Positions 10,786 to 28,316 of a stretch of 64,000 nt of DNA are shown piece after piece. The position numbers and the translations under genes are program-made. The notes beneath the pieces were generated by a model. That model had not been told where the DNA came from. It ran no database searches and saw only the letters and a program-made list of their open reading frames with translations. This stretch comes from Lachnospiraceae bacterium (GTDB lineage: Bacteria; Bacillota; Clostridia; Lachnospirales; Lachnospiraceae): assembly GCA_017473115.1 (NCBI GenBank), contig JAFUNC010000007.1, forward strand, positions 62,001-126,000, in the 5' to 3' direction. Each line of letters starts with the position of its first letter. The first letter of the stretch is position 1.

Positions 10786-11382
10786 ATGAATATCTTGCGG
10801 ATACTTGCTACCATGTACGTGACTTTAATGGGCCCGGTTGTGGCCGGCATCATTAATTCGCTTTGGTGTAAGTTAAAAGTAATGAAGAAATTGCAGATTC
10901 CCATGGATGGTGGGAAAAACTTTAAAGACGGTAAAAGGATTTTTGGTGATCATAAAACCTGGAAAGGTTTTATCGGATACATACTTTGGAATATGGTTTG
11001 TATGGTATTATGGGGATTTGTGTGTAAGGCAGCAGACTTGGAATCTTATAATATGCTATACACCAATTACGAGAATACCTTTGTTTTTAATTTGATTGCA
11101 GGAGCATTGGTGGGCTTTGGTTATGCATTGTTTGAACTTCCCAACAGTTTCTTAAAGAGACGTATCGGTATTGAACCAGGGAAGAGTATGAATGGTGCGC
11201 TGAAAGCCTTTTTTGTGTTTTTTGACCAGGCAGATTCCGTATTCGGCTGTGTGCTGGCAGTATGTATTTTTACACCTATGCCGGTGTGGTTTTATTTCCT
11301 GTATGTGGTAGTCGGCGCAGTAACGCATATTATTATTAATATGCTTTTGTATTTTTGTAAGTTGCGCGGAAATATGTTTTGA
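10786..11382 (+). CDS. CDP-archaeol synthase (CarS)-like CTP:lipid-phosphate cytidylyltransferase
   Basis: A 198-aa integral membrane protein resembling the CarS/DUF46 family, which transfers CMP from CTP to a lipid phosphate such as unsaturated archaetidic acid; bacterial CdsA does the same for phosphatidic acid. The family signature is seen as DGGKNFKDGKRIFGDHKTWK (residues 41-60), followed by about four more membrane segments. Length is normal for CarS. An aspartate in FDQADSVFGC fits the conserved C-terminal part. It opens a run of plus-strand genes for lipid-type chemistry (dikinases, decarboxylase, UbiA, acyltransferase, ligase), so a role in activating a lipid phosphate is likely. The exact substrate is not known, and bacterial members need not make archaeol. 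Confidence 0.7.
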   Translation: MNILRILATMYVTLMGPVVAGIINSLWCKLKVMKKLQIPMDGGKNFKDGKRIFGDHKTWKGFIGYILWNMVCMVLWGFVCKAADLESYNMLYTNYENTFVFNLIAGALVGFGYALFELPNSFLKRRIGIEPGKSMNGALKAFFVFFDQADSVFGCVLAVCIFTPMPVWFYFLYVVVGAVTHIIINMLLYFCKLRGNMF

Positions 11383-11532
11383 ATTTTTTATTTCTACCCG
11401 TTCTGTACCGCTGCATTCACAGGGGTCTTTATGGAATAAAAATATCCATACAATATCAGGCGAGGGAAACATATAAAAAAAAGGCAAGAACAAAAAGAAA
11501 AGGAGAGTCCGGGAAAACTCGGAAATAAAAAT

Positions 11533-12969
11533 ATGTTACAGAAGATTAGCGAAAAGTTACGGAACAGTGGAGATGATTTGGGAAACAAAGGTAAGTTCCT
11601 TTGTGTGATGCATGAAGCAGGATTTCGTGTACCGGACGGTATTATTCTTGATAAAACGGAATATGAAGAATTTGTCCGTATGAATGGTATCGCAGAAGAA
11701 ATCACAAAACATTTATCCGAGTTAAAAGGCGAGAATGTAAGCGAGAAAAGTGCATCCATCACGGCATTGTTTGAAGGTACGAGACTTACGGAACAGGTAT
11801 ACGAAACATTGCAAAGTTATATCAAAGAGGATTGCAATTACGCAGTACGAAGCAGCGGAACCAAAGAGGATTTGGAAGAGTTCTCTTTTGCAGGACAATA
11901 TCAGACGTTTTTAAATATACAGGGAACGGAAGCAATTCAGACAGCAGTGATTGATTGTTACAAATCCATGTTTACCGAAGTGTGTCTGAATTATCTTGTT
12001 AACAACCGCATCGATTGTTCTGACCTTGCAATGTCTGTTGTTATACAGGAAATGGTGGATTCGGATTACAGCGGCATTTGCTTTTCTTTAAATCCCGTAA
12101 CCGGTAAAGATACGGAGATGTCTATGGAAGTGGCACCCGGTCTCGGAGAAAATATTGTAAGCGGTAAGGTGGCACCGGAGCAGTATTATTACGACTGGTA
12201 TGAGAAGTCCTGCCGCATGGCAAAAGAGAATAAAATTTTAACCGAAGAACAGGTAAAACAATTTGGTGAAACCTTCTTAAAAGTGCAACTTCTGTTCGGC
12301 TATCCCTGTGATATGGAATTTGCCATCAAAGATGACGAATTGTATCTTTTACAAGCCAGAAGAATTACAAGCATCAATTACGGCGGCTATCCGGACATCT
12401 GGTCTACGGCAGACTTCAAAGACGGCGGCGTGTCCGCTACGGTTTGTACACCTTATATGTGGAGTTTGTATGAATATATCTGGGAATTTACCCTCCGTAA
12501 ATTTATGTTGGACGGAAAGATTCTTACGGAAAAAGAAACAGATAAAAAACTGGGTGATATGTTTTACGGAAGATGCTACTGGAACATGTCTATTGTAAAA
12601 CTTGCCATGAGTAAAATTATCGGTTACAAAGAACGTGAATTTGACAGTGAGTATGGTGTCAGAATTACCTATGAAGGCGACGGCGAAACCACGGGACTTA
12701 CACCGGGAACTTTATTTGCCATAGCAAGAATGTTTTTTGCCCAGAAGAAGATTCTCAAAGAGCGTAATGAGAATAGCGAAAATTACAAAAAAGACCTGCT
12801 GGAGAAATACGAGAATTACAAACAGCAGTATGATAATAAATCAATTGAGGACATTGAAAAAACCTGGTATACCTTAACCCGTAAAACTTATTTGCAGAGT
12901 GAGGCGACTTACTTTTGGCAGATTTTTATCAATACGGTACATCAGTCCCTCTACAAGGACAGCCTTTAA
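11533..12969 (+). CDS. PEP-synthase-like dikinase, N-terminal part of a frameshifted gene
   Basis: A 478-aa frame covering the ATP-grasp (PPDK N-terminal) domain and part of the middle region of a PEP/pyruvate-binding dikinase of the PEP synthase/rifampicin phosphotransferase type. RSSGTKEDLEEFSFAGQYQ near residue 107 matches the nucleotide-binding RSS..ED..SFAGQ signature. Such enzymes split ATP to AMP and phosphate and pass a phosphate via a swivelling histidine domain to PEP/pyruvate or another acceptor. The frame stops at 12969 in the middle of the helical region, while the next frame continues the same protein to 14048. The join falls near 12965, at a TTT run; one missing T would restore the frame. 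The ribosome site is weak. A full-length paralogue lies at 15958-18192. Confidence 0.75.
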   Translation: MLQKISEKLRNSGDDLGNKGKFLCVMHEAGFRVPDGIILDKTEYEEFVRMNGIAEEITKHLSELKGENVSEKSASITALFEGTRLTEQVYETLQSYIKEDCNYAVRSSGTKEDLEEFSFAGQYQTFLNIQGTEAIQTAVIDCYKSMFTEVCLNYLVNNRIDCSDLAMSVVIQEMVDSDYSGICFSLNPVTGKDTEMSMEVAPGLGENIVSGKVAPEQYYYDWYEKSCRMAKENKILTEEQVKQFGETFLKVQLLFGYPCDMEFAIKDDELYLLQARRITSINYGGYPDIWSTADFKDGGVSATVCTPYMWSLYEYIWEFTLRKFMLDGKILTEKETDKKLGDMFYGRCYWNMSIVKLAMSKIIGYKEREFDSEYGVRITYEGDGETTGLTPGTLFAIARMFFAQKKILKERNENSENYKKDLLEKYENYKQQYDNKSIEDIEKTWYTLTRKTYLQSEATYFWQIFINTVHQSLYKDSL

Positions 12970-14048
12970 AATATGTGTCCGAAAGTGAGTATCTTACTTT
13001 GCTGGGAGCCATTGATAATATTTCACATCTGTTACCTTTTTATGAAATGTGGGATATCTCCAGGGCAATCCGTGGAACTGAAGAGACTAAGAATTTCTGG
13101 GAAAGAAAGACACCGGAAGAATTGGCGGAAATTTATGCCCGGGGCGAAGAAGGCTATTGCTTAAAGCAGGTAAAAGAATTGGTGGAGAAATACGGTTATC
13201 ATTCCGACAAGGAATTGGATGTGACCTACCCCTGCTATTATGAGGACATTATCCCCCTGATTGTCAGCATCAAGGATATGGTGGCGTTAAGCGATGAATT
13301 CAGCCCTGTGGAAGATAAGAAAAAGGGTGAAGCCGCATACAAGGAAATTCTTGAAACAATCCAAAGTAAGGTAAGCAAATCCAAGTATAAAAAAATTGAA
13401 ACCAAGATCATGAATATGCGTAAAATGTTGTGGTGGCGTGAAGAGTTCCGTGACCTGTCAACAAGATTTTATTATATTATTCGTATTTACACCGTAGAAC
13501 TTGGTAAGCATTTGGTGCAAAAAGGTGTGCTGAACGAAGTGGAAGATATTTGGTTCACAAGAGTATCTGCTTTGTGGGATTATCTTGATGGCAAAATGTC
13601 AGCCGAAGAACTTCGCCAAATGGTTACAAGTAAGCGCGAATATTACAATGCATTCCGTAACTACATGAGTGAGAATGAAATCGGAGGTGTGTTCGGAGAA
13701 GCATTGGCAGAGACGAAGATGTCCAATGGACAAATCAAAGGCTTAGGTGCCAACAGCGGTCGCATTACCGGTACTGCCCGTGTCATTGAAGATTTTAGTC
13801 AAATCGGAAGATTGCAGGAAAAAGATATTTTGGTTACCCGATTTACAGATACCGGATGGACACCGAAATTTGCTATTTTATCGGGTATTGTTACGGAGTA
13901 TGGCGGAATTCTTTGCCATGCAGCGATTGTATCCAGAGAGTATGGTATTCCGGCTATTGTCAGTTGCCATGATGTCATGAAGAAGATTAAGGACGGAGAC
14001 ACCATTACCATCGACGGAAGTACCGGTGTGGTAACGGTGGAGCAATAA
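12915..14048 (+). pseudogene. PEP-synthase-like dikinase, C-terminal part (phosphohistidine domain) of the frameshifted gene
   Basis: This frame completes the dikinase begun at 11533. It has no credible start codon or ribosome binding site of its own; real homology appears to begin around KYVSESEYLTLLGAI, directly at the point where the upstream frame stops. The C-terminus carries the swivelling phosphohistidine domain with the phosphorylated His in GGILCHAAIVSREYGIPAIV, followed by the usual GDTITIDGSTG end. Together both parts would make about 838 aa, comparable with PEP synthase-like and rifampicin phosphotransferase-like proteins. All active-site regions are intact, so the break is either a recent mutation or a sequencing error in a homopolymer. 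A canonical slippery site was not found. Confidence 0.7.
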
Positions 14049-14118
14049 ACACAACCGTTTGACGTAAGGAGCAGATTATCACAATTCTGTTTGGAAGAAT
14101 GGAAGGAGAGAACATTCA

Positions 14119-14982
14119 ATGTCTCAAATATATAACAGGCAGACAAAGGAATATGCGGAGAATTCCCAGTACGGTGGTAAAGCACTGGATTTTTTATATA
14201 ACAGTCCTGTGGGAAGAATACTGTTAAAGTTTATTATACATCCCTGCTTTTCCGAAGTTTGCGGTTGGTATTACAGAAGTTGTTTCAGTCGGAAAAAGAT
14301 TCGGGAATTCATACAAGAATATAATATTTGTATGGATGATTTTCAGAAGAAAGAGTATCGGAATTTTGATGAGTTTTTTATCCGTAAAATCAAACCCGGG
14401 AAACGTCCGACAGACAGGACGGAGGAACATTTCATTGCTCCGGCAGACAGTAAGTTGTCCGTATATGTCATCGGACAAGATAACCGCATTACAATCAAGG
14501 GTGTAAGTTACACTGTATCGGAATTGGTTGGCGGGCAAGTGAAATTGGGGGCGTATGAAGGCGGACAATGTCTGGTATTCCGACTGGCAATGGACGACTA
14601 TCACAGATATTGTTTTGTTGACAGAGGAAAACTTGTAAAACGCTACAGAATAAAAGGTCGTCTTCATACCGTAAGTTCCATTTCCAAAGACCATAAAATT
14701 TACCGGGAGAATACCCGAGTGGTTAATTTAATGAAAACGAAGAATTTCGGTAATGTCATTTGTATTGAAGTGGGCGCTTTGCTGGTGGGTAAAATTCATA
14801 ATCACCCCATCAAAACCTTTTATAAGGGACAGGAAAAAGGATATTTTGAACTGGGCGGTTCCACCATTGTATATTTAATCAAACCAAACCGTATGGTTTT
14901 GGATGAAGACATTCTTGCCAACTGCAATGAAGAGACAGAAGTAAAAGTTCTAATGGGTGAGCGAATCGGAAGAATGTTTTGA
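14119..14982 (+). CDS. psd: Phosphatidylserine decarboxylase family protein
   Basis: A 287-aa membrane-associated pyruvoyl enzyme that converts phosphatidylserine (or an analogue such as archaetidylserine) to the ethanolamine lipid and CO2. The family signatures are NFDEFFIRKIKPGKRP near residue 82, MDDYHRYCF with the His of the catalytic site, GALLVGKI, and the self-cleavage site YFELGGSTIVYL near residue 247, where the chain is cut before Ser to make the pyruvoyl group. The clostridial GGST form replaces LGST. AAGGAGAG lies upstream of the ATG. It sits 70 bases after the frameshifted dikinase and 63 before the UbiA gene, inside the lipid-type cluster. No phosphatidylserine synthase gene is adjacent. 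Confidence 0.92.
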   Translation: MSQIYNRQTKEYAENSQYGGKALDFLYNSPVGRILLKFIIHPCFSEVCGWYYRSCFSRKKIREFIQEYNICMDDFQKKEYRNFDEFFIRKIKPGKRPTDRTEEHFIAPADSKLSVYVIGQDNRITIKGVSYTVSELVGGQVKLGAYEGGQCLVFRLAMDDYHRYCFVDRGKLVKRYRIKGRLHTVSSISKDHKIYRENTRVVNLMKTKNFGNVICIEVGALLVGKIHNHPIKTFYKGQEKGYFELGGSTIVYLIKPNRMVLDEDILANCNEETEVKVLMGERIGRMF

Positions 14983-15045
14983 TAAAAAAGAAGCAAAGAA
15001 ACATAAGAAGAATTCTTTCGGAAAAGAGTCAGGAGAAAAATAACC

Positions 15046-15945
15046 ATGCTGAAGAGATTACATATTTATTTTAAAGAAAGATATCCGTTGTTTGCACGAT
15101 TCCTTTTGGGCTGCATTGTGTTTTTGGAGATTCATTTTATTATTCTGTTAAATCACGGAGTAACGGATTTTCATATTGGCTTTCAGGAACTGGTTGGTGC
15201 ATATACCGTATTTGCGTTTCTGTTTTGGCTTCGCGTTGCGGATGATTTGAAAGATTATGAAACAGACTTGAGACTGTTTCCGGACAGACCGTTACCCAGC
15301 GGGCGTGTGTATAAAAAGGATATTGTAATCATCTGTATGATTTTTCAGGCCATTGCGTTAATTCTCAATATTGTTTTTATGAACAATTTCCTGTTTTTCT
15401 GTATTCTGTATGCGTACGGTTATTTAATGAGTAAATGGTTTTTTAAGAAGAAAAAAATCCAGCCGTCGCTGCCGTTGGCATTGATTACACACAATCCGGT
15501 GCAGATGTTTGTGAATGTGTATATTATCTCTTTTACGGTGATTAAATATGATTTACCTGCGATTACTTTGTATACCGTGATGGCGCTGTGGACCTTGTAT
15601 TTTCCTGCGTTGATTTGGGAAGTGTCCCGCAAGATTAAAGCACCGAAAGATGAGAATGACTATACCACGTATTCGAAGTTATTCGGGCATAAAAAGAGTA
15701 CGATTTTTGTAATGATTTTGACGCTTGTGGATATTGTTACCAATATGATTCTGGTATTTAACCTAAACAAAGCAACCATTCTTTTATTTATCATTTTGGT
15801 TTCATGGATGACGTGGAAATTCATCCGTTTTATCAAAAATCCGGAAAAGTTTGTGTTGGTACAGAAGGTCGAGATTTACACATATATACAGGAGACATTG
15901 ATGTTGCTTACGATTGTACTGTTTTTAATCGTTGGTAAGGTATAA
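15046..15945 (+). CDS. UbiA-family prenyltransferase-like membrane protein
   Basis: A 299-aa protein with about eight to nine membrane helices. The first aspartate-rich motif of the UbiA superfamily appears as ADDLKDYETD (65-74), followed by PDRPLPSGRV, both typical; the second Asp motif is less clear (around APKDENDY). UbiA enzymes move a prenyl group from a prenyl diphosphate to an aromatic ring, a haem precursor, a sugar phosphate or, in archaeal DGGGP synthase, a glycerol ether. AGGAG precedes the ATG. Only 12 bases separate it from the next dikinase gene, so the two are surely co-transcribed. No quinone or haem genes are nearby, which favours a lipid acceptor, but this is inference. Confidence 0.8.
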   Translation: MLKRLHIYFKERYPLFARFLLGCIVFLEIHFIILLNHGVTDFHIGFQELVGAYTVFAFLFWLRVADDLKDYETDLRLFPDRPLPSGRVYKKDIVIICMIFQAIALILNIVFMNNFLFFCILYAYGYLMSKWFFKKKKIQPSLPLALITHNPVQMFVNVYIISFTVIKYDLPAITLYTVMALWTLYFPALIWEVSRKIKAPKDENDYTTYSKLFGHKKSTIFVMILTLVDIVTNMILVFNLNKATILLFIILVSWMTWKFIRFIKNPEKFVLVQKVEIYTYIQETLMLLTIVLFLIVGKV

Positions 15946-15957
15946 CAGGGGATACAA

Positions 15958-18192
15958 ATGCTTGGTAAAAAGATTACGAATCTGACAATTTTAAAAGAGA
16001 AAGGCTTCGTAGTGCCGGAGTTTCTTGTGGTAAAACCGGGAGAAGAGATTTCTGTTTCGGATATTCCCTGGGATATTTGTTCCGTACGTTCTTCCGCGAA
16101 TATGGAAGATGGTGCGGATAGCAGTTTTGCGGGGCAGTTTGACACCTATCTGAATGTGGAAAAAGCAGATGTACCGGCAAAGATGGAAGAATGTCGCGCT
16201 TCTGTAGGAAAACCGGCTGTACAGGAGTATCTTGCGAATCGGGGCTTGAATGCCGATGCACTTCAAATGAATGTGATTGTGCAACAAATGATTCCGGCGG
16301 AAGTGTCCGGCGTTTGTTTTACGGCAAATCCCCAAGGGCTTTTGAATGAAACGGTAATTGTTGCGGGAAAAGGAACCGGAGATAACGTGGTAGAGGATAA
16401 AACAGATACTACCGCCTATTATTATAATACAACCGACGGGAATTATTATTATGAGGGTGCCGAGGATTATTTGGGCGATGCCATGGTACAGAAACTGGTA
16501 CAAACCGCAACGGATATGACTGAGGTGCTCGGTCCCTATTTAGACATAGAATTTGCCGTATGGAACGGTGATTTATATATACTGCAGGCAAGGGATATTA
16601 CCACCGTTCACGGAGAAACACCGTTAATTCTCGATAACAGTAATATTGTGGAAAGTTATCCCGGCATCAGTCTGCCCTTGACCTGTTCCTTTGTAAATAT
16701 TGTATACAGCGGAGTATTTCGGAGTATCAGTAACCGTGTATTAAAAAATAAAAAGCAATTGTACAAGTACGAAAGTGTTTTTACCAATATGGTAGGCGAC
16801 GTAAACGGTCGTATGTATTATAAAATCAGCAATTGGTATACGCTGATTAAGTTTTTACCCATGAATGGTAAGATTATTCCCATCTGGCAGGACATGTTGG
16901 GCGTCAAAGTGCGAAGTTATGATGCGCAGGCGGTAAAACTGCCCTGGTATGTGCGCTTGGGTACATATTTCAATGTGGTATATGAAATGCTACGTGTACC
17001 GAAGAATATGGAGAAACTAAATCGTGATTTTATCAAGATTAACGAAGGTTTTTATACGAAATACCACGATGAAATTTCGGCAGGGGAATTGAAAGAATTA
17101 TATGATGAGTTATATGCTACATTACTTTCCTGCTGGGATGTGACTTTATTAAATGATATGTATTCGTTTCTTTTTACGGGCATGGTAAAGAAGCGTCTGG
17201 GCGAGGAAAGCAATGAGGTGATTTCCGGTATTTCCAATATCGAAAGTTTAAAGCCCATCAAAGAAATGATTCGTCTGGCGTTTGAGAAAAAAGACTTGAC
17301 GGAAGCGGAATACCGGGAGCACTTTGATGCTTATATCAAAGAATACGGTGACCGTAATTTGGAAGAACTGAAATTGGAAAGCAAAACGTTTCGAAGTCAT
17401 CCGGAACTTTTGGAAGAAAAGTTGGAAGAATATAATCGGGATCCGGAGAAACTAGCAGATATGTATGCAAACCTTTATGCAGAGGATGCGGTCTTCAAAC
17501 CCTTAAAAGGATTCAACGGATTTCTTGCAACAAATGCGGCAAAAGGCATTGCAAACCGTGAAATTTCCAGATTGAACCGAAGCCGTATATTCGGAATCGT
17601 GCGATTGATTTTTACCCGTATGGGACGGATTTTTGCGGAAGCCAATCTTTTGGAAACACCGGAAGACATATTCTGGATTACGGCAGAAGAGGCTTTCTCG
17701 CTCATAGACAATCCGGTGCCGATGCAGGAACGTGTGGCGGAGCGCAAAGCAAAGTATGAAGTGTATCGGTTACTTCCCGCATATCAGCGCCTGATTTTTA
17801 TGGAACGGGAATTCGATAAAAATCACAGAAGCATCAATGCACATGTATTTCAATCAACGGATGATCAATTAAAAGGAATTCCCTGTTCTGACGGCATTGC
17901 GGAAGGGGAGGCTCTTGTGGTAACCGATGTCACTAAGGTAAAAGAGTATCAGAACAAAATCCTTGTGACTAAAATGACAGATCCCGGCTGGGTTTTTCTT
18001 CTGGTGAGTGCCAAGGGTGTCATTTCCGAGAAAGGTTCCCTTCTTTCTCACACGGCCATTATTTCCAGGGAAATTAAAATTCCTTCCGTGGTTGGTGTAG
18101 AGAATTTGATGAGTACGGTGCGAAGCGGCGATAAAATTCGTATGAACGGCAATACGGGAGAGATTGAAATCCTTGAGCGTGCTCCACAATAA
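15958..18192 (+). CDS. PEP-synthase/rifampicin-phosphotransferase-like dikinase
   Basis: A 744-aa intact paralogue of the frameshifted gene at 11533-14048. The ATP-grasp domain comes at once, with RSSANMEDGADSSFAGQFD from residue 44 and NVIVQQMIPAEVSGVCFTAN further on. A long helical central region follows, and the C-terminus has the swivelling domain with the phosphohistidine in LLSHTAIISREIKIPSVVG near residue 698. There is no TIM-barrel PEP/pyruvate domain as in PPDK, as in rifampicin phosphotransferase-type enzymes, so the acceptor may be a small alcohol or lipid. Twelve bases follow the UbiA stop and 41 precede the GNAT gene. Its context argues for phosphorylation of a cluster intermediate and against a central-metabolism role. 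Confidence 0.85.
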   Translation: MLGKKITNLTILKEKGFVVPEFLVVKPGEEISVSDIPWDICSVRSSANMEDGADSSFAGQFDTYLNVEKADVPAKMEECRASVGKPAVQEYLANRGLNADALQMNVIVQQMIPAEVSGVCFTANPQGLLNETVIVAGKGTGDNVVEDKTDTTAYYYNTTDGNYYYEGAEDYLGDAMVQKLVQTATDMTEVLGPYLDIEFAVWNGDLYILQARDITTVHGETPLILDNSNIVESYPGISLPLTCSFVNIVYSGVFRSISNRVLKNKKQLYKYESVFTNMVGDVNGRMYYKISNWYTLIKFLPMNGKIIPIWQDMLGVKVRSYDAQAVKLPWYVRLGTYFNVVYEMLRVPKNMEKLNRDFIKINEGFYTKYHDEISAGELKELYDELYATLLSCWDVTLLNDMYSFLFTGMVKKRLGEESNEVISGISNIESLKPIKEMIRLAFEKKDLTEAEYREHFDAYIKEYGDRNLEELKLESKTFRSHPELLEEKLEEYNRDPEKLADMYANLYAEDAVFKPLKGFNGFLATNAAKGIANREISRLNRSRIFGIVRLIFTRMGRIFAEANLLETPEDIFWITAEEAFSLIDNPVPMQERVAERKAKYEVYRLLPAYQRLIFMEREFDKNHRSINAHVFQSTDDQLKGIPCSDGIAEGEALVVTDVTKVKEYQNKILVTKMTDPGWVFLLVSAKGVISEKGSLLSHTAIISREIKIPSVVGVENLMSTVRSGDKIRMNGNTGEIEILERAPQ

Positions 18193-18233
18193 AAAGGCAG
18201 TTTGAACGATAAAACAAAATTTGAAGAAGAGGT

Positions 18234-19328
18234 ATGGCGGTGAATTGCATACATTTTACCAATGAAGAAAAATACATCAAAGATTTTATTAAATTACCGG
18301 GGAAATTGTATTCCAAGGCAGACAATATGGAGGATGCGCAGGATATGAAAGCATTGCTTAAGGGAGAACATCCTTTAAGCGGTTATTTTAAGTTGTATCC
18401 GTTTCTTGTTTATGATAACAGGCAGGTTGTGGGACGTTTTGGAATTACGGTTTATCCGAATGATACTACGGCCTATCTTGGCTTTTATGAATGTGCGGAC
18501 CGGGACGAGGTCGCAAAGATGATTTTTGAAGAGGCAGAGAACTTTGCGGGAGAACTTGGATGTGAGAGGATAGAAGGCCCCGTGGATGCTTCTTTCTGGA
18601 TTAAATATCGTTTGAAGATTAATCTTTTTGACCGGTTACCTTATACGGGTGAGCCGTACAATAAGGAATATTATTTGAAACAGTTTACGGATAACGGCTT
18701 TTGCGTGAGCCAGCATTATACGTCAAATTTTTATGAGCCTTTGGCTGCAGAAAATGAAGATCCTTTGTATGATAACCGTTTGGCCATGTTTACGGAAAAA
18801 GGATATGAAATTGAGAGTCCGAATATTAAGGATTATGATGTGATTCTTGGTCAGTTATATAAACTTTTAACGGAACTCTACAGTGATTTCCCTATTTATA
18901 AGGATTTGTCGGAATCGGATTTTCGCAAGGTGTTTGATAATTACAGATATATTCTGAATTTGACCATGGTAAAAATGGCTTACTACAAAGGTGAACCGGT
19001 AGGATTTCTGGTAAGCGTTCCGGATTATGGGAACCGAGTGTATCATCTTAAGAATCCGTTCAATCTTTTAACGGTTTTGAAATTAAAAAAGAAACCGAAA
19101 CAATATGTCATGTTGTATATGGGTGTGGACCAGTCGCACAGAGGATTGGGAAAGGCCTTGGCAGGCAGCATTATGGAAGAGTTGAGAAAGAACGGGTTGC
19201 CAAGTATCGGAGCCCTTGCCAGGGATGGTAAAATTACCCAGAAATACGGAGAGGACTATATTGAGCAGTTATATGAATATGTTTTGTTGGAGAAGAATGT
19301 AACTAAAATATACAAAAGAGAAGGATAA
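18234..19328 (+). CDS. GNAT-fold acyltransferase, YghO/bacterial ceramide synthase-like
   Basis: A 364-aa protein with a GNAT acyl-CoA-binding C-terminal half (MLYMGVDQSHRGLGKALAGS). The N-terminal pattern is GRFGITVYP, then GFYECADRD, then IEGPVDASFW. This overall pattern resembles the YghO-like family that includes the Caulobacter bacterial ceramide synthase, an enzyme that N-acylates a long-chain amine. No serine palmitoyltransferase gene is visible, so the acceptor here need not be a sphingoid base. The ATG at 18234 is very close to its GAAGAAGAGG site; the GTG two codons later is better spaced. Four bases separate its stop from the acyl-AMP ligase, which suggests that the ligase supplies the acyl donor. 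Confidence 0.7.
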   Translation: MAVNCIHFTNEEKYIKDFIKLPGKLYSKADNMEDAQDMKALLKGEHPLSGYFKLYPFLVYDNRQVVGRFGITVYPNDTTAYLGFYECADRDEVAKMIFEEAENFAGELGCERIEGPVDASFWIKYRLKINLFDRLPYTGEPYNKEYYLKQFTDNGFCVSQHYTSNFYEPLAAENEDPLYDNRLAMFTEKGYEIESPNIKDYDVILGQLYKLLTELYSDFPIYKDLSESDFRKVFDNYRYILNLTMVKMAYYKGEPVGFLVSVPDYGNRVYHLKNPFNLLTVLKLKKKPKQYVMLYMGVDQSHRGLGKALAGSIMEELRKNGLPSIGALARDGKITQKYGEDYIEQLYEYVLLEKNVTKIYKREG

Positions 19329-19332
19329 GGAT

Positions 19333-20790
19333 ATGAACTTAGAGAAGGTATTAAAAGAGAATTATATAAAATGGAAAAACAGGGAATATGCCTACGAAAA
19401 AAAGAACGGTGTATATGAAGTCGTTACCTATGGTGATTTTTTGGAGAAGACATGGCGTTTTGCTGCGTTCCTTTTATCCAAAGGTTTTAAAGGGAAAAAC
19501 ATTATGCTGTACGGCGCCAACAGCATTCATTGGATGATCGCGGATCTGGCAGTCCTTCACTATGTCGGTGCCGGTGTTTGTGTATCCAAAGAGTGGAAGT
19601 ATGAAGATATTGCCGGTGCGATTCAATTATTGGATATTCCCTGCGTGCTTTACGGAGAGGATAAAAAAGAGGTAATAGACGAAATACGTAAGACATTTCC
19701 GGAACTTACATATATTTCACTGAATAAACTGGATGACTATATTTCGGATATTACAATGGAAGAAGCGGAGAAGGTATGTATTCCAAGGGAGGAAGATGCC
19801 TGTTGTAAAATTGTTTTTTCCAGCGGTACTACTTCAAAACCGAAGGCAGCGATGTTGTCACGCAAAAATGTATTTGCGGGACTTCCGTCACTTTTACGAA
19901 GATGTCCTTTTAATGAAACAGATGTGGATTACTTATTCTTGCCGTTGAATCATACTTATGGCGGAATTTATAATTACCTGTACTCTCTGGTAACGGGATT
20001 TCGGGTTTACTTATGTTCTTCAGTGAATGATATGGCCAAAGAAATTTTAGAAGTGAATCCTACCATTTTCAGTACTGTTCCTTTGATTTGCAGGAAATTT
20101 TATGAGGGTTACGGAGAACATGTTGGCAAAGCCTTCGGTCCCAATATAAAATATATTTTCTGTGGTGGTGCAAAGTTGGACGAAGAAATATTCCAAGCTT
20201 ATAAAAACAGTGAGTTGAATCTGATGAATGCATACGGATTATCGGAAACCGCTTCTACATTTTCCATTCAGTATCCTTATGACCCTGACAATGAGACGGT
20301 TGGTACGGTGGCAGAGGAAGCCGATGCAGTTATTTTAAATCCGGATGAAAACGGTGTGGGAGAAATTGCAGTAAAAGGTGATTTGGTATTTCTGGGCTAT
20401 GCCGGTGATGAAGAATTAACCGGTAAGGTATTTACGGAAGACGGTTATTTTAAGACCGGTGATATGGGTTATATGTTGCCCGATGAACGAAACGGTGGAT
20501 ATAAGTTGTACATTACGGGACGTATTAAAAAAATTCTGCTCGGGGAAAATGGTGAAAACATTGACCCCGCTCATATCGAGGATATGATTGCCGGGCGGAA
20601 TGACAATATTAACAAAGCATTGGTTTATATGCAGGAAAATACACTGTCCTGTCATATCTATTTAAAGGAGGCGGAAGAACGGGATTGGGATGCCTTCTTC
20701 GAAGAATTGAATGCACAATTACCTTCTTATGAAAAGATCCGCAAATATGATGTATCCGTTGATTCCGTAGAGAAACGTTTAAAACAATAG
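19333..20790 (+). CDS. AMP-forming acyl-CoA synthetase/ligase family protein
   Basis: A 485-aa member of the adenylate-forming (ANL) family, closest in pattern to long-chain fatty acid-CoA ligases. The P-loop-like motif is FSSGTTSKPKAAMLS, the A5 region is NAYGLSETAS, the A7 region is YFKTGDMG and the hinge is GRIKKILLGENGENIDP. The C-terminal subdomain is short. It activates a carboxylic acid with ATP and probably loads CoA or a carrier protein. It is the last gene of the tightly spaced run with UbiA, dikinase and GNAT; the promoter of the next gene begins 41 bases after its stop. No acyl carrier protein gene is next to it. Confidence 0.85.
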   Translation: MNLEKVLKENYIKWKNREYAYEKKNGVYEVVTYGDFLEKTWRFAAFLLSKGFKGKNIMLYGANSIHWMIADLAVLHYVGAGVCVSKEWKYEDIAGAIQLLDIPCVLYGEDKKEVIDEIRKTFPELTYISLNKLDDYISDITMEEAEKVCIPREEDACCKIVFSSGTTSKPKAAMLSRKNVFAGLPSLLRRCPFNETDVDYLFLPLNHTYGGIYNYLYSLVTGFRVYLCSSVNDMAKEILEVNPTIFSTVPLICRKFYEGYGEHVGKAFGPNIKYIFCGGAKLDEEIFQAYKNSELNLMNAYGLSETASTFSIQYPYDPDNETVGTVAEEADAVILNPDENGVGEIAVKGDLVFLGYAGDEELTGKVFTEDGYFKTGDMGYMLPDERNGGYKLYITGRIKKILLGENGENIDPAHIEDMIAGRNDNINKALVYMQENTLSCHIYLKEAEERDWDAFFEELNAQLPSYEKIRKYDVSVDSVEKRLKQ

Positions 20791-20906: not shown

Positions 20907-21608
20907 ATGAAAAAGACAACATTAGAAGAAAAAGAATTTTTACAGCAATATGACAGTTCCGCGTTTGAGAAGCCGTCCGTGGCTGTGGATGTGCTTATTT
21001 TTACCATTGAAAATGATACCTTAAAGGTAGTAATGGTAGAACGTAAAGAATTTCCTTACAAGGGATGTTTGGCACTGCCCGGTGTATTTGTGGGCATTGA
21101 TGAGAGTCTTGAAGATGCCGTAAAACGTGGCGTAAAAGTAGAAACCGGATTGACGGATATTTATTTTGAGCAACTCTATACATGGGGAGAGGTTAAGAGG
21201 GATCCCCGTATGAGAATTATTTCGGTTTCTTATATGGCAATGGTATCCATTGAACAGTTACGTGCAAAGTCCAAAAACGGTAACATTAGTGATTATTTAT
21301 ATCCGGTGGAAGAAATGCTGAAGGCGGAAAATGAATTGGCATTTGATCATCAGCAGATTATTGCTTATGCAAGGGAGCGAATCAAAAACAAGGTGGAATA
21401 TTCCGATATTGCCTTTAATTTTATGCCTGCAAAATTTACGTTGCCGGGCCTTCAGAAGGTATATGAAATTCTTTTGGATAAGCCTTTGTATAAGGCAAAC
21501 TTCCGTAAAAAAATCAGCCCTATGGTACTGGAAACCGATGAGTCTACTTCGGGAGATGCACATCGCCCCAGTAAATATTATGTGAAAAATCAAGAGTATC
21601 GTCCTTAA
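20907..21608 (+). CDS. NrtR-like Nudix-domain transcriptional regulator with degenerate Nudix box
   Basis: A 233-aa protein with an N-terminal Nudix fold (about 20-150) and a C-terminal winged-helix-like part (FTLPGLQKVYEILL, then FRKKI), the layout of NrtR regulators that sense ADP-ribose-type ligands and repress NAD or sugar genes. The Nudix box reads RGVKVETGL where active enzymes have REUxEExGU, so two of the metal-binding acids are missing and hydrolysis is unlikely. Ligand sensing is therefore the probable role. The ATG follows GAGACGGGG; a promoter sits 47 bases upstream. The regulated genes are not evident: no NAD genes are adjacent, and the neighbours are the lipid-type cluster and a DHH phosphoesterase. 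Confidence 0.75.
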   Translation: MKKTTLEEKEFLQQYDSSAFEKPSVAVDVLIFTIENDTLKVVMVERKEFPYKGCLALPGVFVGIDESLEDAVKRGVKVETGLTDIYFEQLYTWGEVKRDPRMRIISVSYMAMVSIEQLRAKSKNGNISDYLYPVEEMLKAENELAFDHQQIIAYARERIKNKVEYSDIAFNFMPAKFTLPGLQKVYEILLDKPLYKANFRKKISPMVLETDESTSGDAHRPSKYYVKNQEYRP

Positions 21609-23297: not shown

Positions 23298-25748
23298 ATG
23301 GAAAGGAAATATAAATACGATGCCTTTATCAGCTATACGCATGCTGATTTGGATAAGTTTGTAGCAGAAAACCTGCATAAAGAATTGGAAAAATTTCATC
23401 TGCCCAAGGCTTTGGCAAAGAAACGTCCGGGGAAGAAAAATCGTATTGAGAGGGTATTTCGAGACAAGGAAGAGTTGCCGTCTACCAGCGATATGAACGA
23501 TACCATTATGGCGGCTTTGCATGACAGCGAGCACCTGATTGTAATATGTTCGCCCAGACTTCGGGAATCCGTGTGGTGTAAAAAAGAAGTGGAGACATTT
23601 CTGGAGTTGCGCGGCCGGGAGAATATTATGGCGGTTCTGGTGGAAGGAGAACCGGCAGAATCTTTTCCGGAAGCATTATTGTTCCATATTGAAAAAAAGG
23701 AAACGAAAGACGGTGGCATAGAAGAAATTAAAATTCCCAGAGAGCATTTTGCTGCAGACGTACGCGGTAAAAACAAGAGAGCGGTAAAGAAACTGATTCC
23801 CAGGGAAGTGCAGCGTTTGTGTGCCGGAATGTTTCATGTGGATTTTGATGATATCCGTCAGCGCCATAAGGAACAAAAAATGCGTCGGACGCTTCTTTTA
23901 TCAACTATTATAGGGGCTGTCTTTTTTGTGGTGGGGCTTTACAGTACTTTTATGGCAATCCATATTCATAATCAAAACCGTGAACTGGAAGCCTTGTCTG
24001 CAGAAGTACAGAGCAATGCAGAGCAGATTATGCAGCAGAACCGGGAATTGGCATATAAGCAGGCGTTATCGTTAGCGGAGGATGCTGAGAGGTATTTGGA
24101 AGAAGGGAATTGTCAAAAGGCTATTTCAACGGCTGTGGAATCTTTAACGGAAAGCGATGGCGTAGAATTACCCTATACACCGGAGGGGCAGTATGTTTTG
24201 TGTGAAAGTCTGCGCGTATATGACATCGGTGTTACGGCACGGTCTGACTATCAGGTTGAGGTAAAAGGTTGTATTAAAGAAATTAAGCAATCTCCGAATA
24301 AAGAGATATTAGCCATTTTAGATGATACCAAAACGATTACGCTGTTTGACTTAAAGAAGCGACAGTTGGTCACCGTAATTGCTTTGCAGTTATACGGTTC
24401 GGGAAATGAATATGGATTTACTTTTTTAGGGAACGACAGATTTGCCTATATTAATTCAAGTAATGTTATTTGTATTTTGAATCTGGAAACAAAGGAAACC
24501 GTAAAAGAGATTGAACTGAATACGGCGATGACATTGACTTCGGACGAAGAAGGTAAATATCTGGTGGTACAACGGTGGGATGATACTTTTGTTGTGCTGG
24601 ACGGAACAACATATGAAGAAATAGGTGTTACTCCGGATGAACAAAAAGAATTATATATGAGTTTGCCCTATATTTCATCGGAAGGCATTATGGCGTTCGG
24701 TTATGCTGATGAACAGGAAGAATATGATTTATGTTTTATGGATTTGAATACCATGGAAAGAATGTCTTCTTTGGAGTTGGGACATCAGAAAGCCAAAGAC
24801 ATAAAGATAAAAGACGATGTGGCTTATGTAGCGTTGGGTAAATTTGAAGATAAGTATACCGAGGTTGCGGCAGTGGCGGCGGCAGTAGACATTCAAAGCG
24901 GCAAAATAATGTGGGAAACTGCAGTGGACGAGGACGTCCGGGCCGATGAAATTGTGATACCGATGAGTAATAGCGGTACGGAACTGCTTTTTGCTACGAA
25001 TGAGAGTGTCAGCAGAATCAATATGCAAACAGGAGAGATTTCGTTTACTTCTTTTGTGAATGATGAAGTCGCGGATACGGTGGTATATTCGGAACCTTGT
25101 GATTATATGATTTTATTGAAAAACGGCGAGATGATTTATGTCGGTAATGATTTGAATATGACCATAGATATGGGTTACCGGTTTGATTGTAAAACAACGG
25201 ATAATTCGCATGTTTTTTATACGGTTCACGGCATTGCCGTTGCGGAAAATGATGCACACGTCATTACGGTATATACCAATCAAAAAGGACCGGAAATCAA
25301 GGAGACTGATAGGGAAGTTGTGTTGCCTGCAGATGAAGAAACATTATCGGGTAAAGATGCTGAGAGCGTTGCAACATCTTACGGTCTGGAAGATGCCGAG
25401 TATGTTAGAAAAGTCTATTACGATCCGGATAAAAAATATTGTTTCGTTACATATATGGATGATAGTTTTATCGTTTATGATGTGAAGAAAGAACAGATAA
25501 TTTATTCCGGAGATTCAGCCCGTGATACGGAACTGTGCCTTGGTACGGACAGTGAGGGTTATACTTATTTGGCAGGTGTTTATGGTATATATGTTTTGAA
25601 TGAAGATATGTGTCCTGTTATGTGGATCGAGCACGCCAAAGATGTGGATATGGAAAATAAAAAGGTATATTTGAGTTGGAACGGAAAATATTACGAAGCA
25701 CCTCTTTATACTGTGGAGGAGTTGCTGGATATTGCGGGACAACAGTAA
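23298..25748 (+). CDS. TIR-domain transmembrane receptor with C-terminal beta-propeller-like domain
   Basis: 816 aa. An N-terminal TIR domain (about 6-150) begins YDAFISYTHADLDKF and contains RVFRDKEELP and the ESVWCKKEVE stretch, where the Glu after WC is the usual NADase glutamate position of catalytic TIRs. Basic residues (KMRRT) precede one membrane helix near 197-217. A coiled coil (about 225-270) follows, then about 500 residues with repeated strands such as TITLFDLKKRQLV, VICILNLETKETV and VAAVDIQSGKIMW, typical of WD40/PQQ-like propellers. By the positive-inside rule the TIR part is cytoplasmic and the propeller extracellular. Together with the next gene it forms a tandem pair. Ligand and effector role (signalling or NAD depletion) are unknown. 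Confidence 0.8.
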   Translation: MERKYKYDAFISYTHADLDKFVAENLHKELEKFHLPKALAKKRPGKKNRIERVFRDKEELPSTSDMNDTIMAALHDSEHLIVICSPRLRESVWCKKEVETFLELRGRENIMAVLVEGEPAESFPEALLFHIEKKETKDGGIEEIKIPREHFAADVRGKNKRAVKKLIPREVQRLCAGMFHVDFDDIRQRHKEQKMRRTLLLSTIIGAVFFVVGLYSTFMAIHIHNQNRELEALSAEVQSNAEQIMQQNRELAYKQALSLAEDAERYLEEGNCQKAISTAVESLTESDGVELPYTPEGQYVLCESLRVYDIGVTARSDYQVEVKGCIKEIKQSPNKEILAILDDTKTITLFDLKKRQLVTVIALQLYGSGNEYGFTFLGNDRFAYINSSNVICILNLETKETVKEIELNTAMTLTSDEEGKYLVVQRWDDTFVVLDGTTYEEIGVTPDEQKELYMSLPYISSEGIMAFGYADEQEEYDLCFMDLNTMERMSSLELGHQKAKDIKIKDDVAYVALGKFEDKYTEVAAVAAAVDIQSGKIMWETAVDEDVRADEIVIPMSNSGTELLFATNESVSRINMQTGEISFTSFVNDEVADTVVYSEPCDYMILLKNGEMIYVGNDLNMTIDMGYRFDCKTTDNSHVFYTVHGIAVAENDAHVITVYTNQKGPEIKETDREVVLPADEETLSGKDAESVATSYGLEDAEYVRKVYYDPDKKYCFVTYMDDSFIVYDVKKEQIIYSGDSARDTELCLGTDSEGYTYLAGVYGIYVLNEDMCPVMWIEHAKDVDMENKKVYLSWNGKYYEAPLYTVEELLDIAGQQ

Positions 25749-25793
25749 ATTTTTTATATTCAGTAATCAAAGTATTTGTTAAAAGGTGAAAAG

Positions 25794-28316
25794 ATGGAAG
25801 AATTAAAAAAAGAAGAGTCGATGCAAAATGAATCAAAAGCAGAGATGCCGGATGCCCTTCATTATGATGCTTTTATCAGTTACAGACATACGGATTTGGA
25901 TAAGTTTGTGGCTGAAAATCTTCATAAACAGTTGGAAGCATATCGTATGCCTGCAGATGTGGCAAAGAAACGTCCGGGAATGAAGAATCGAATTGAAAGG
26001 GTGTTCCGTGACAAAGAGGAACTTCCGTTGACCAGTAACTTAAATGACCCGATTATGATGGCATTGCGTAACAGTGACTGGTTGATTGTCATCTGCTCTC
26101 CGAGATTAAGAGAGTCAGTATGGTGTAAAAAAGAAATTGAGTCTTTTATTCAGCAGCATGGCAGAAACCGGGTGTTGGCAGTTCTGGCGGAAGGTGAGCC
26201 TGCCGAATCTTTTCCGGATGAACTTTTATTTAAAACGGAAGTGGTGACGAAACCGGACGGTAGTAGGGAAGAAGTGAAGGTTCCCGTGGAACCGCTTGCT
26301 GCAGACATCCGTGGCAAAAATAAAAAAGAAATTCTGAAAAATATGAAGGCGGAGTTGCTTCGCATTCTGGCTGCCATGTTTCATATGAATTTTGATGATT
26401 TACGCCAACGTCATAAAGAGCAGGAACACAAACGTAAAATGCGTTATATGGCTCTGGGGATTGTTGTATGTTTTGTGGTATCACTGGTATCCATTGGTAT
26501 TGCATTACAGATGAATCATCAGAATAAAGTAATTCAGGGATTGTCGGATTACACGTATATGCAAAATGAGATGATGAAAGCAGAGCAGGCCGAAAATTTA
26601 GCAGACAAGGCATTGACGTATTTGGAAAAAGGCGATAGAGAGAGTGCAATTCAGTATGCAGTTTGGGCAAGTACCCAATATGAAAGTATGACAATGCCTT
26701 ACACGGAAGAAGCGCAATACGCATTGGCGGAATGTCTCGGGGTATATGAAACCGGAGAAATTTATGAACCAAGATATCAGATTGAAACTATGGGTATCAT
26801 TACGCATATGGATGTAGCACAGGATAAAAAAACATTGATTATTTTGGATGATTGTCAAACGGTAACGGTTTATGATACGGAATCACGGGAGGTGATTTTG
26901 GAACTGGGTGCGGGTGAACATTTTATTGCCAAGGATACAGGATATGCTTTTTTATCAAACAATCGACTTGCCTATTTGAATGCAAACAATGCAGTTGTTA
27001 TTTTCAATATAGAGACCCGTGCGGTTGAGAAAGAGTTAAAGGATGTCAATGCAATCGAACTGATTGCGGACAGTGAAGGAAAATATTTTGCCGTACAAAC
27101 ACTTTCTGCGGAATATATGGTTTATAACGGTGAAACATTGGAATGCCTCGGAATGACACCGGATTTTACAAATGGTATTGATTACAGTTTTATGAACAGC
27201 GAAGGCATTCTTGCATATTCGCATTATTATAACAACAGCAACGAATCCTACCAAATCCATTTTCTTGATTGCAAAACGATGCAGGAATTATCTTCATTGA
27301 CAATGGATACTATTACATTGGAAGATATGGCTGTAGACGGAGACCGTGCGTATGTATTTGCCAGCCGTTACAGCGATGAGCCGGCGGAAAATGAGTGTAT
27401 TGTTTACGGAATTGATATTACAACCGGACAGGTGTTGTGGGAAAACAGTCAAAAGGGCTCTGTGGGCATTATTATGACTTTGCCTGCGTGCGAAAACAAA
27501 AAGGAATTGTTGGTATTAACAAAACAGACCGCACGATTGGTGGATATGCAAACCGGTGAAAACGGATTTCAGATTTCTTTGGATTCCACACCGGTGGAAG
27601 CATTCCGGACCACAACCAATAACAGTTTTCAATTTTTCTGTGAAGATGGAACTGTTATCATGCTGACATCGGATATGGATTATGATGTTCCGATGACGCA
27701 GACATTTCATTGTAAAACGACGGATAATAAAGCATATTGTCTCATTGCAAACGGAATTGTTACGTTACCGGAACAAAGCAATCAAATTACCGTCTATACA
27801 GCTGAATGTGCGGATGGAGTAGAACGGATTGATGCGGTGGAGATTGCACAACCGGAATGTTATTATCAGGACACAGCGCAGAACTATGCAAGAGAGTATG
27901 GGCTGGAACAACCGGAATATGTGAAGACATTGTTCTTCGATCCGGCTAAGCATTACGTTTTTGCAAGTTATTGGAATAATGATTTTATCATATATGATGT
28001 TGTGTTGGGCAGGGTAGTCGGCACCTTTGAAGACTGCGATACCATGTGCGGATATTGGGGAGAAGATGCAAACCAAAATATGTATATAAAAGGGGAAAAG
28101 GGAGGCTATATTATTTCCGTCAATACAAAAATAGTTATGCGTATTCCCTATATGAAAGGTTTGGATTTGGAGCAGAATAAAGTATATCTGCAACCGTTTT
28201 CCGCATTATATGAAGCACCGATTTACACGTCTGTGGAACTGATTCAGATGGCAGCACCGTATATGCAGGAAAAGGAAGAAAGCGCAGGAAATGAGACACC
28301 GGATTCGGAAGGGTAA
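25794..28316 (+). CDS. TIR-domain transmembrane receptor, paralogue of the preceding gene
   Basis: 840 aa with the same architecture as the gene 45 bases upstream: a TIR domain (YDAFISYRHTDLDKF, RVFRDKEELP, ESVWCKKEIESF), a basic stretch then a membrane helix near 222-243, a short helical linker and a propeller-like C-terminal region (TVTVYDTESREVI, AVVIFNIETRAVE, CIVYGIDITTGQVLW). The TIR parts are much more alike than the outer domains, so the outer parts have diverged, as expected if they sense different ligands. The ATG at 25794 has AAAGGTG upstream; the frame is open six codons earlier. A strong terminator follows, closing the pair. Confidence 0.8.
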   Translation: MEELKKEESMQNESKAEMPDALHYDAFISYRHTDLDKFVAENLHKQLEAYRMPADVAKKRPGMKNRIERVFRDKEELPLTSNLNDPIMMALRNSDWLIVICSPRLRESVWCKKEIESFIQQHGRNRVLAVLAEGEPAESFPDELLFKTEVVTKPDGSREEVKVPVEPLAADIRGKNKKEILKNMKAELLRILAAMFHMNFDDLRQRHKEQEHKRKMRYMALGIVVCFVVSLVSIGIALQMNHQNKVIQGLSDYTYMQNEMMKAEQAENLADKALTYLEKGDRESAIQYAVWASTQYESMTMPYTEEAQYALAECLGVYETGEIYEPRYQIETMGIITHMDVAQDKKTLIILDDCQTVTVYDTESREVILELGAGEHFIAKDTGYAFLSNNRLAYLNANNAVVIFNIETRAVEKELKDVNAIELIADSEGKYFAVQTLSAEYMVYNGETLECLGMTPDFTNGIDYSFMNSEGILAYSHYYNNSNESYQIHFLDCKTMQELSSLTMDTITLEDMAVDGDRAYVFASRYSDEPAENECIVYGIDITTGQVLWENSQKGSVGIIMTLPACENKKELLVLTKQTARLVDMQTGENGFQISLDSTPVEAFRTTTNNSFQFFCEDGTVIMLTSDMDYDVPMTQTFHCKTTDNKAYCLIANGIVTLPEQSNQITVYTAECADGVERIDAVEIAQPECYYQDTAQNYAREYGLEQPEYVKTLFFDPAKHYVFASYWNNDFIIYDVVLGRVVGTFEDCDTMCGYWGEDANQNMYIKGEKGGYIISVNTKIVMRIPYMKGLDLEQNKVYLQPFSALYEAPIYTSVELIQMAAPYMQEKEESAGNETPDSEG

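Follow-up and report, generated by a model that had tools for sequence, protein, structure and literature searches.

A block of seven gene functions from the genome of a Lachnospiraceae bacterium forms a conserved unit that may encode a second, dedicated phospholipid pathway beside the ordinary one. The block is located at positions 10786-20790 of a 64,000-nucleotide stretch of DNA (assembly GCA_017473115.1, contig JAFUNC010000007.1, positions 62,001 to 126,000), which is referred to here as the window. The reading that the block provides such a pathway, with a phosphoethanolamine lipid that has an isoprenyl and acyl core as its product, has roughly even chances of being correct. The functions are those of a CarS-like cytidylyltransferase (CarS), two dikinases (DIK1 and DIK2), a phosphatidylserine-decarboxylase-type enzyme (PSD), a UbiA-superfamily prenyltransferase (UbiA), a YghO-like GNAT acyltransferase (GNAT), and an acyl-AMP/acyl-CoA ligase, all encoded on the forward strand with intergenic gaps of 150, 70, 63, 12, 41, and 4 bases (Table 1). 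The first-pass annotation of the sequence had listed these seven functions; its coordinates, single strand, and gaps all agree with the listing of open reading frames (ORFs), and its family assignments hold, with Pfam matches for CarS, PPDK_N and PEP-utilizers (twice), PSD, UbiA, GNAT, and AMP-binding. Its description misses a frameshift in DIK1 and an eighth gene, which encodes a PssA-like cytidine diphosphate (CDP)-alcohol phosphatidyltransferase and links CarS to PSD. The eighth gene is absent from the window block, where DIK1 is directly followed by PSD.

Relatives of the block were collected by scanning a genome collection with an alignment of UbiA, which yielded 330 relatives; the best 80 were kept, and 44 of these have full flanks. 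The loci are thus selected by UbiA, and a gene was counted as present if tblastn matched it at any position of the retrieved sequence. CarS, DIK1, UbiA, DIK2, and GNAT are each present in 44 of the 44 full-flank loci, PSD in 42, the ligase in 41, and the CDP-alcohol transferase in 37, with seven loci lacking it. The complete eight-gene set occurs in 33 of the 44 loci, and the genes that are present always share one strand. The genes are mostly arranged as CarS, DIK1, CDP-alcohol transferase, PSD, UbiA, DIK2, GNAT, and ligase, and eight-gene versions of the unit, in which the transferase usually lies between DIK1 and PSD, are the most frequent. The gene set forms a real unit, far beyond chance. 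The first-pass annotation had asked whether the genes co-occur in the neighbourhoods of relatives, and they do, five of them without exception. It had also considered that UbiA and CarS might belong to known, unrelated pathways, and no such assignment emerged from the NCBIfam or PDB comparisons.

Pairwise distance matrices of the eight proteins correlate at 0.70-0.94 over the 37 loci with all eight, a correlation to which common descent contributes. UbiA has the lowest mean divergence of the eight, with a mean distance of 0.23 versus 0.36-0.49 for the others. No further gene is tied to the block among the flanking ORFs of at least 100 residues, smaller ORFs having been left out, and the most frequent flanking family is found in 17 loci at scattered positions. 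In four loci, a tandem GNAT gene is inserted between GNAT and the ligase.

Table 1 Components of the gene block in the window
Feature	Coordinates	Strand	Evidence
CarS-like CTP:lipid-phosphate cytidylyltransferase, 198 residues	10786..11382	+	PF01864 70.8 bits (cut-off 22)
DIK1, rifampin-phosphotransferase-like dikinase, frame broken	11533..14048	+	PPDK_N 211 bits, PEP-utilizers 90 bits
Phosphatidylserine-decarboxylase-type enzyme (PSD), LGGST motif	14119..14982	+	PF02666 PS_Dcarbxylase 161.3 bits (cut-off 22)
UbiA-superfamily prenyltransferase, own subfamily PRK13592	15046..15945	+	PF01040 39.8 bits (cut-off 34.2)
DIK2, rifampin-phosphotransferase-like dikinase	15958..18192	+	PPDK_N 119.6 bits, PEP-utilizers 72.3 bits
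YghO-like GNAT acyltransferase	18234..19328	+	PF00583 31.0 bits (cut-off 20.7)
Acyl-AMP/acyl-CoA ligase, AMP-binding	19333..20790	+	PF00501 166.8 bits (cut-off 29.9)

CarS passes its Pfam cut-off and scores 75.3 bits against the NCBIfam model of CDP-2,3-bis-geranylgeranylglycerol synthase, which is under the cut-off of 148. Of 65 block members, 60 contain the motif FGxxKTxKG, in most cases as FGDNKTWKG; the window has FGDHKTWKG. Genes of the CdsA family exceed their cut-off in all 18 hand-chosen genomes (16 block carriers and the two variant carriers G084 and G353; completeness is not given for the 11 genomes that were reached via loci). Therefore, CarS is an addition to the ordinary pathway. 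UbiA scores 406.5 bits against model NF010118 (cut-off 443) and contains the motif DDLKDYETD, which is conserved as DDxKD[YF]E[TS]D in 72 of 77 relatives. When one UbiA sequence alone was compared with the PDB, nothing useful emerged; with a 30-sequence profile, the best solved structure is that of digeranylgeranylglyceryl phosphate (DGGGP) synthase 6m31, with an E value of 6.4e-6 over 98 of 299 positions.

The head-group enzymes are PSD and the CDP-alcohol transferase. PSD scores 272 bits against NF001941, under the cut-off of 371, and the [GA]GS[ST] motif is present in all 73 block members. The CDP-alcohol motif is present in 59 of 60 block transferases. On a different contig, the genome of the window, which is 85% complete, encodes a CDP-alcohol transferase of the block type, with 38% identity to a block member and 186 bits against the block profile; it is one of the two CDP-alcohol transferases found in that genome. 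Its top models are PssA (89.5 bits, cut-off 107) and archaetidylserine synthase (86.6 bits, cut-off 240). Because a block-type transferase is encoded on another contig and the PSD of the block is the only one found in the genome, it is plausible that the branch from serine to ethanolamine is completed in trans. Gene presence and motifs point to a putative phosphatidylserine-to-phosphatidylethanolamine head-group pair, formed by a serine CDP-alcohol transferase and a self-cleaving PSD.

The two dikinases contain the RSSxxxED and phosphohistidine motifs. Among the relatives, the histidine motif is present in 69 of 70 DIK1 sequences and in 75 of 77 DIK2 sequences, and RSSxxxED in 58 of 77 DIK2 sequences. 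In the window, the reading frame of DIK1 is interrupted: the gene is covered by two ORFs, 11533-12969 and 12915-14048, which do not share a frame, and both halves match an intact 838-residue relative from locus L020, with a one-base frame switch at approximately 12966. An error of assembly and a genuine mutation are both possible causes of the frame break. The best NCBIfam models of both dikinase families carry the name phosphoenolpyruvate (PEP) synthase, and DIK2 scores 788 bits against NF004882 (cut-off 850). The first-pass annotation had assigned the dikinases to the PEP-synthase type. The PPDK_N and PEP-utilizers domains agree with it; however, only the dikinase domains PF01326 and PF00391 were found in the two DIK1 halves, DIK2, and the intact DIK1 from L020, and the C-terminal PEP/pyruvate-binding domain was not, so that a role as PEP synthase was rejected. 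The best PDB chains for the dikinases are 5fbs and 5hv1-3, and those for DIK2 are 5fbs and 5hv2. These chains, labelled PEP synthase in the search table, are presumably rifampin phosphotransferase. Rifampin phosphotransferase and the PigC/RedH-type dikinases share with the block dikinases an ATP-grasp domain, a middle region, a C-terminal phosphohistidine domain, and the lack of a detected PEP/pyruvate domain. Unlike them, the block dikinases occur as two copies tied to UbiA and CarS, and score far under the cut-offs of those families; for the rifampin phosphotransferase model NF041857 (cut-off 999), DIK2 reaches 186.4 bits and the DIK1 halves 159.2 and 149.3 bits.

The block profile of GNAT gives 48.3 bits for Escherichia coli YghO and 5.3 bits for the best non-YghO protein among 532, which identifies GNAT, at the level of sequence, as truly YghO-like. 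PDB searches with a single GNAT sequence and with the profile provided nothing useful. The ligase scores 147 bits against the long-chain-fatty-acid--CoA ligase model NF004837 (cut-off 476), and its block profile gives 74.7 bits for the fatty acyl-AMP ligase of E. coli BL21, compared with 6.1 bits for the next protein.

Variant loci retain part of the block. Loci L017, L018, and L019 (L017:9406-17364, L018:7020-15670, and L019:7033-15570, the latter two from one genus) contain UbiA, a DIK2-type dikinase, a YghO-like GNAT, and a ligase, with a DUF3419 protein and a membrane protein of approximately 445 residues replacing CarS, DIK1, and PSD. DUF3419 is the family of BtaA, and a betaine-type head on the same core is possible in these loci. 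The 445-residue protein has no Pfam or NCBIfam match; its RKxxH and ADSxAALIG motifs resemble those of phytol and dolichol kinases. A fourth variant, L118:6011-13481, encodes a divergent UbiA, a DIK2-type dikinase, CarS, a CDP-alcohol transferase, and a 923-residue fusion of 3-hydroxy-3-methylglutaryl-CoA (HMG-CoA) reductase with an EcKL/APH-type kinase; the reductase is a link to isoprenoids. In all four variants, the dikinase adjacent to UbiA has a better score against DIK2 than against DIK1. As we read the block and its variants, the constant pair is UbiA and DIK2, near which a second kinase-type protein occurs each time.

In the proposed pathway, the ligase would activate a fatty acyl chain, the YghO-like GNAT would transfer it to the core, and UbiA would place an isoprenyl chain on the core. 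CarS would activate the core phosphate with cytidine triphosphate (CTP), the CDP-alcohol transferase, acting in trans in the window genome, would exchange cytidine monophosphate for serine, and PSD would decarboxylate the serine head to ethanolamine. The two dikinases would phosphorylate hydrophobic alcohols. The slightly preferred option is that an isoprenoid alcohol is phosphorylated in two steps to the diphosphate donor for UbiA, because UbiA and DIK2 are constant and a second kinase-type protein is nearby each time; alternatively, the finished lipid alcohol may be phosphorylated to provide the substrate of CarS. Head-group modules may have been swapped between lineages around the core of UbiA and dikinase. 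The substrates, order of steps, backbone, and chain types of the pathway are predicted from homology. It is conceivable, as a tentative and more specific proposal, that the product is a hybrid phosphoethanolamine lipid of gut clostridia, which combines an archaeal-type isoprenyl chain attached by UbiA, possibly derived from dietary phytol, with a bacterial-type acyl chain provided by the ligase and the YghO-like GNAT, and which is formed by way of two dikinases that act on lipid alcohols and a CDP branch specific to CarS, without geranylgeranylglyceryl phosphate (GGGP) synthase.

Several observations weigh against the block being a second phospholipid pathway for a phosphoethanolamine lipid with an isoprenyl and acyl core. 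DIK1 is frameshifted in the window, the ligase is missing from three of the 44 full-flank loci and PSD from two, and among 16 block carriers examined, G401 has no PSD in its genome data. Of the 80 loci retained as the best of 330 relatives, just 44 have full flanks. The variant loci L017-L019 have neither CarS nor PSD. The score of UbiA against the DGGGP synthase model PRK12883 is only 19.7 bits (cut-off 353); because the scores are far under the DGGGP cut-offs and the PDB match covers one third of the protein, any assignment of an acceptor and a prenyl donor to UbiA is tentative. The known first glycerol-prenylating enzyme was not found above its cut-off in the 18 genomes. According to PMC7852524, CdsA is able to replace CarS for archaeal lipids, so that the presence of CarS is weaker evidence for an isoprenoid chain. 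Those relatives of GNAT that have been characterised acylate an amine and not a glycerol hydroxyl (PMC9386255).

The first-pass annotation had compared the block to the archaeal route for ether phospholipids. The likeness of CarS and UbiA to archaeal-type enzymes stands, and the block shares with that route a set composed of a UbiA-type prenyltransferase, CarS, a serine-type CDP-alcohol transferase, and PSD, which correspond to DGGGP synthase, CarS, archaetidylserine synthase, and archaetidylserine decarboxylase. However, GGGP synthase (PcrB, PF01884) is above the cut-off in none of the 18 genomes, in which two weak partial matches of 21.8 and 20.6 bits fall under the cut-off of 23.9, whereas 7 of 14 control genomes have a match and 5 exceed the cut-off. 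The canonical archaeal route would therefore be without its first committed enzyme, and the full diether route was rejected. Glycerol-1-phosphate (G1P) dehydrogenase (PF13685) exceeds its cut-off in all 18 genomes and also in 13 of the 14 controls, and is hence unspecific; scores above 110 bits are reached in only 5 of the 18, and the best in the window genome is 39.5 bits. A strong G1P-dehydrogenase-type gene (120.6 bits) is located at L012:18466-19521 in one carrier, approximately 3 kb from the block and next to a glycosidase-like gene identified by eye, and may be unrelated to the block. A diether phospholipid with a G1P backbone and two isoprenyl ethers would leave the ligase and GNAT without a function and the two dikinases as additions; it is the least credible of the explanations considered. 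PMC7852524 describes Candidatus Cloacimonetes as bacteria whose archaeal-like lipid genes include one for a UbiA-type enzyme, a trait shared with the block carriers; however, they possess GGGP and DGGGP synthases without CarS, whereas the block carriers have CarS and yielded no GGGP synthase above the cut-off. For a phosphoethanolamine lipid of the ceramide or sphingolipid type, the probability is hardly higher than for the diether. The adjacent YghO-like GNAT and acyl ligase resemble the cluster of E. coli BL21 and Caulobacter (yghO/aca, AasR, epi, AcpR, and spt), which in E. coli BL21 has yghO next to genes for an acyl-AMP ligase, an epimerase, an acyl carrier protein (ACP), and spt. In PMC9386255, yghO and CC_1154 are named aca and are required, with an acyl-ACP synthetase, for dihydroceramide synthesis, and the aca product "might be" an N-acyltransferase. 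The ceramide likeness drawn in the first-pass annotation thus holds for GNAT; it does not extend to the route. Unlike the ceramide cluster, the window block has no gene for serine palmitoyltransferase (SPT), a ketoreductase, or ACP, and has a prenyltransferase, CarS, and PSD instead, of which UbiA would be unexplained. No ACP gene was noticed in the intervals that separate the genes of the window block; the flanking survey covered ORFs of at least 100 residues, and a small ACP elsewhere is possible. Relatives of SPT (E. coli Spt query, E value at most 1e-5) are present in only 2 of the 18 genomes (G278 and G376), with none found in the window genome; therefore, ceramide synthesis would be without its first enzyme in most carriers, and the sphingolipid route was rejected.

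Two further explanations retain more of the block. The CDP-alcohol transferase and PSD may serve plain phosphatidylethanolamine synthesis and merely lie next to an isoprenoid or secondary-metabolite pathway with which they have nothing to do. In loci L013, L079, and L085 the transferase/PSD pair has another position, and in L061 and L067 it is missing, while CarS, DIK1, UbiA, DIK2, and GNAT stay together, and the window PSD is the sole one found in its genome; however, the invariant presence of CarS makes sense only with a head-group step, and the distance matrices of all eight proteins are correlated, with the share of common descent given above. This arrangement is rather improbable. Somewhat less so, though still unlikely, is the salvage of isoprenoid alcohols, a bolder form of the pathway proposed here, in which the dikinases would convert a prenol of external origin, for example chlorophyll-derived phytol in the gut of a herbivore, to a diphosphate, UbiA would attach it to a polar lipid, and the remaining enzymes would finish the head. 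It is consistent with the recurrence of UbiA, a DIK2-type dikinase, and one further kinase-like protein, which is DIK1 in the block, the 445-residue protein in L017-L019, and the EcKL/APH fusion in L118. By our reading, a herbivore host is named in 32 of the 80 record titles of the kept relatives and another kind of host in none, a raw count that may point the same way. By contrast, the lack of a Pfam or NCBIfam match for the 445-residue protein and the HMG-CoA reductase of L118, which points to synthesis instead, speak against salvage, and nothing on such a pathway appeared in the portions of the literature on phytol and rumen bacteria available, among the matches listed.

The distribution of the block among genomes is patchy, and its carriers are a minority of gut clostridia. 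In a search of 391 Clostridia genomes with UbiA, 10 have a match at 1e-10: seven are close, with 51-100% identity (the genome of the window included), and three are distant, with 26-32% identity. The CarS model matches 134 of the same genomes, nine with more than 45 bits and seven with more than 60 bits, and these seven are exactly those with a close UbiA. Matches under 34 bits, which are the only ones in 125 of the 134 genomes, were set aside as probable CdsA, mostly on the basis of ORF length. The two other genomes above 45 bits contain the variant cluster L118 and locus L119, which has CarS and a 572-residue piece of DIK1 and is read as a remnant. Carriers identified by UbiA account for 12 of 299 Lachnospiraceae, the genome of the window included. 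This patchy spread is a further point that the first-pass description misses. The second member of the window's genus in the sample lacks the block, which is found in five other families of the class. In a phylum-wide draw of 398 genomes, the UbiA profile matched only the genome of the window and hence none of the further carriers from the Clostridia search, which indicates little beyond rarity. The patchiness, combined with the compact gene order, suggests transfer between lineages.

The surroundings of the block in the window contain further genes. Directly 3' of it is a gene for an NrtR-like Nudix/winged-helix regulator (20907-21608). This gene and those for a DHH protein and a 118-residue ORF have no relatives among the other flanking ORFs surveyed in loci L020-L099, and a neighbouring GH3 gene has weak matches in five loci in the comparison of flanking ORFs. 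Two tandem genes (23298-25748 and 25776-28316) encode large proteins that both have a TIR domain at the N-terminus and, as judged by eye, a transmembrane stretch; the first has weak beta-propeller matches and the second a weak pyrroloquinoline quinone-propeller match, and they are possibly a signalling or defence pair. A scan for promoters and terminators gave uninformative counts, at the level of shuffled sequences (33 versus a mean of 31.8, and 11 versus a mean of 9.3).

The gene set is not described in the parts of the open-licence literature covered, nor in the available text of the Lipocone paper (PMC12419801). To that extent, the first-pass view of an uncharacterised lipid-type cluster apparently stands for a block of co-occurring genes, and its lipid product is a prediction. 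Five carrier records, Butyrivibrio sp. XPD2006, Butyrivibrio sp. INlla14, Lachnospiraceae P6A3, Lachnospiraceae AC2028, and Ruminococcaceae YRB3002, are probably isolates because they are not labelled as metagenome-assembled genomes, and their presence among the carriers makes the lipid hypothesis testable. If the product is a hybrid of isoprenyl and acyl chains, the block would allow the divide between archaeal and bacterial lipids to be tested in a natural setting, and it would provide functions for an orphan subfamily of UbiA, for a bacterial CarS, and for two families of phosphotransferases.

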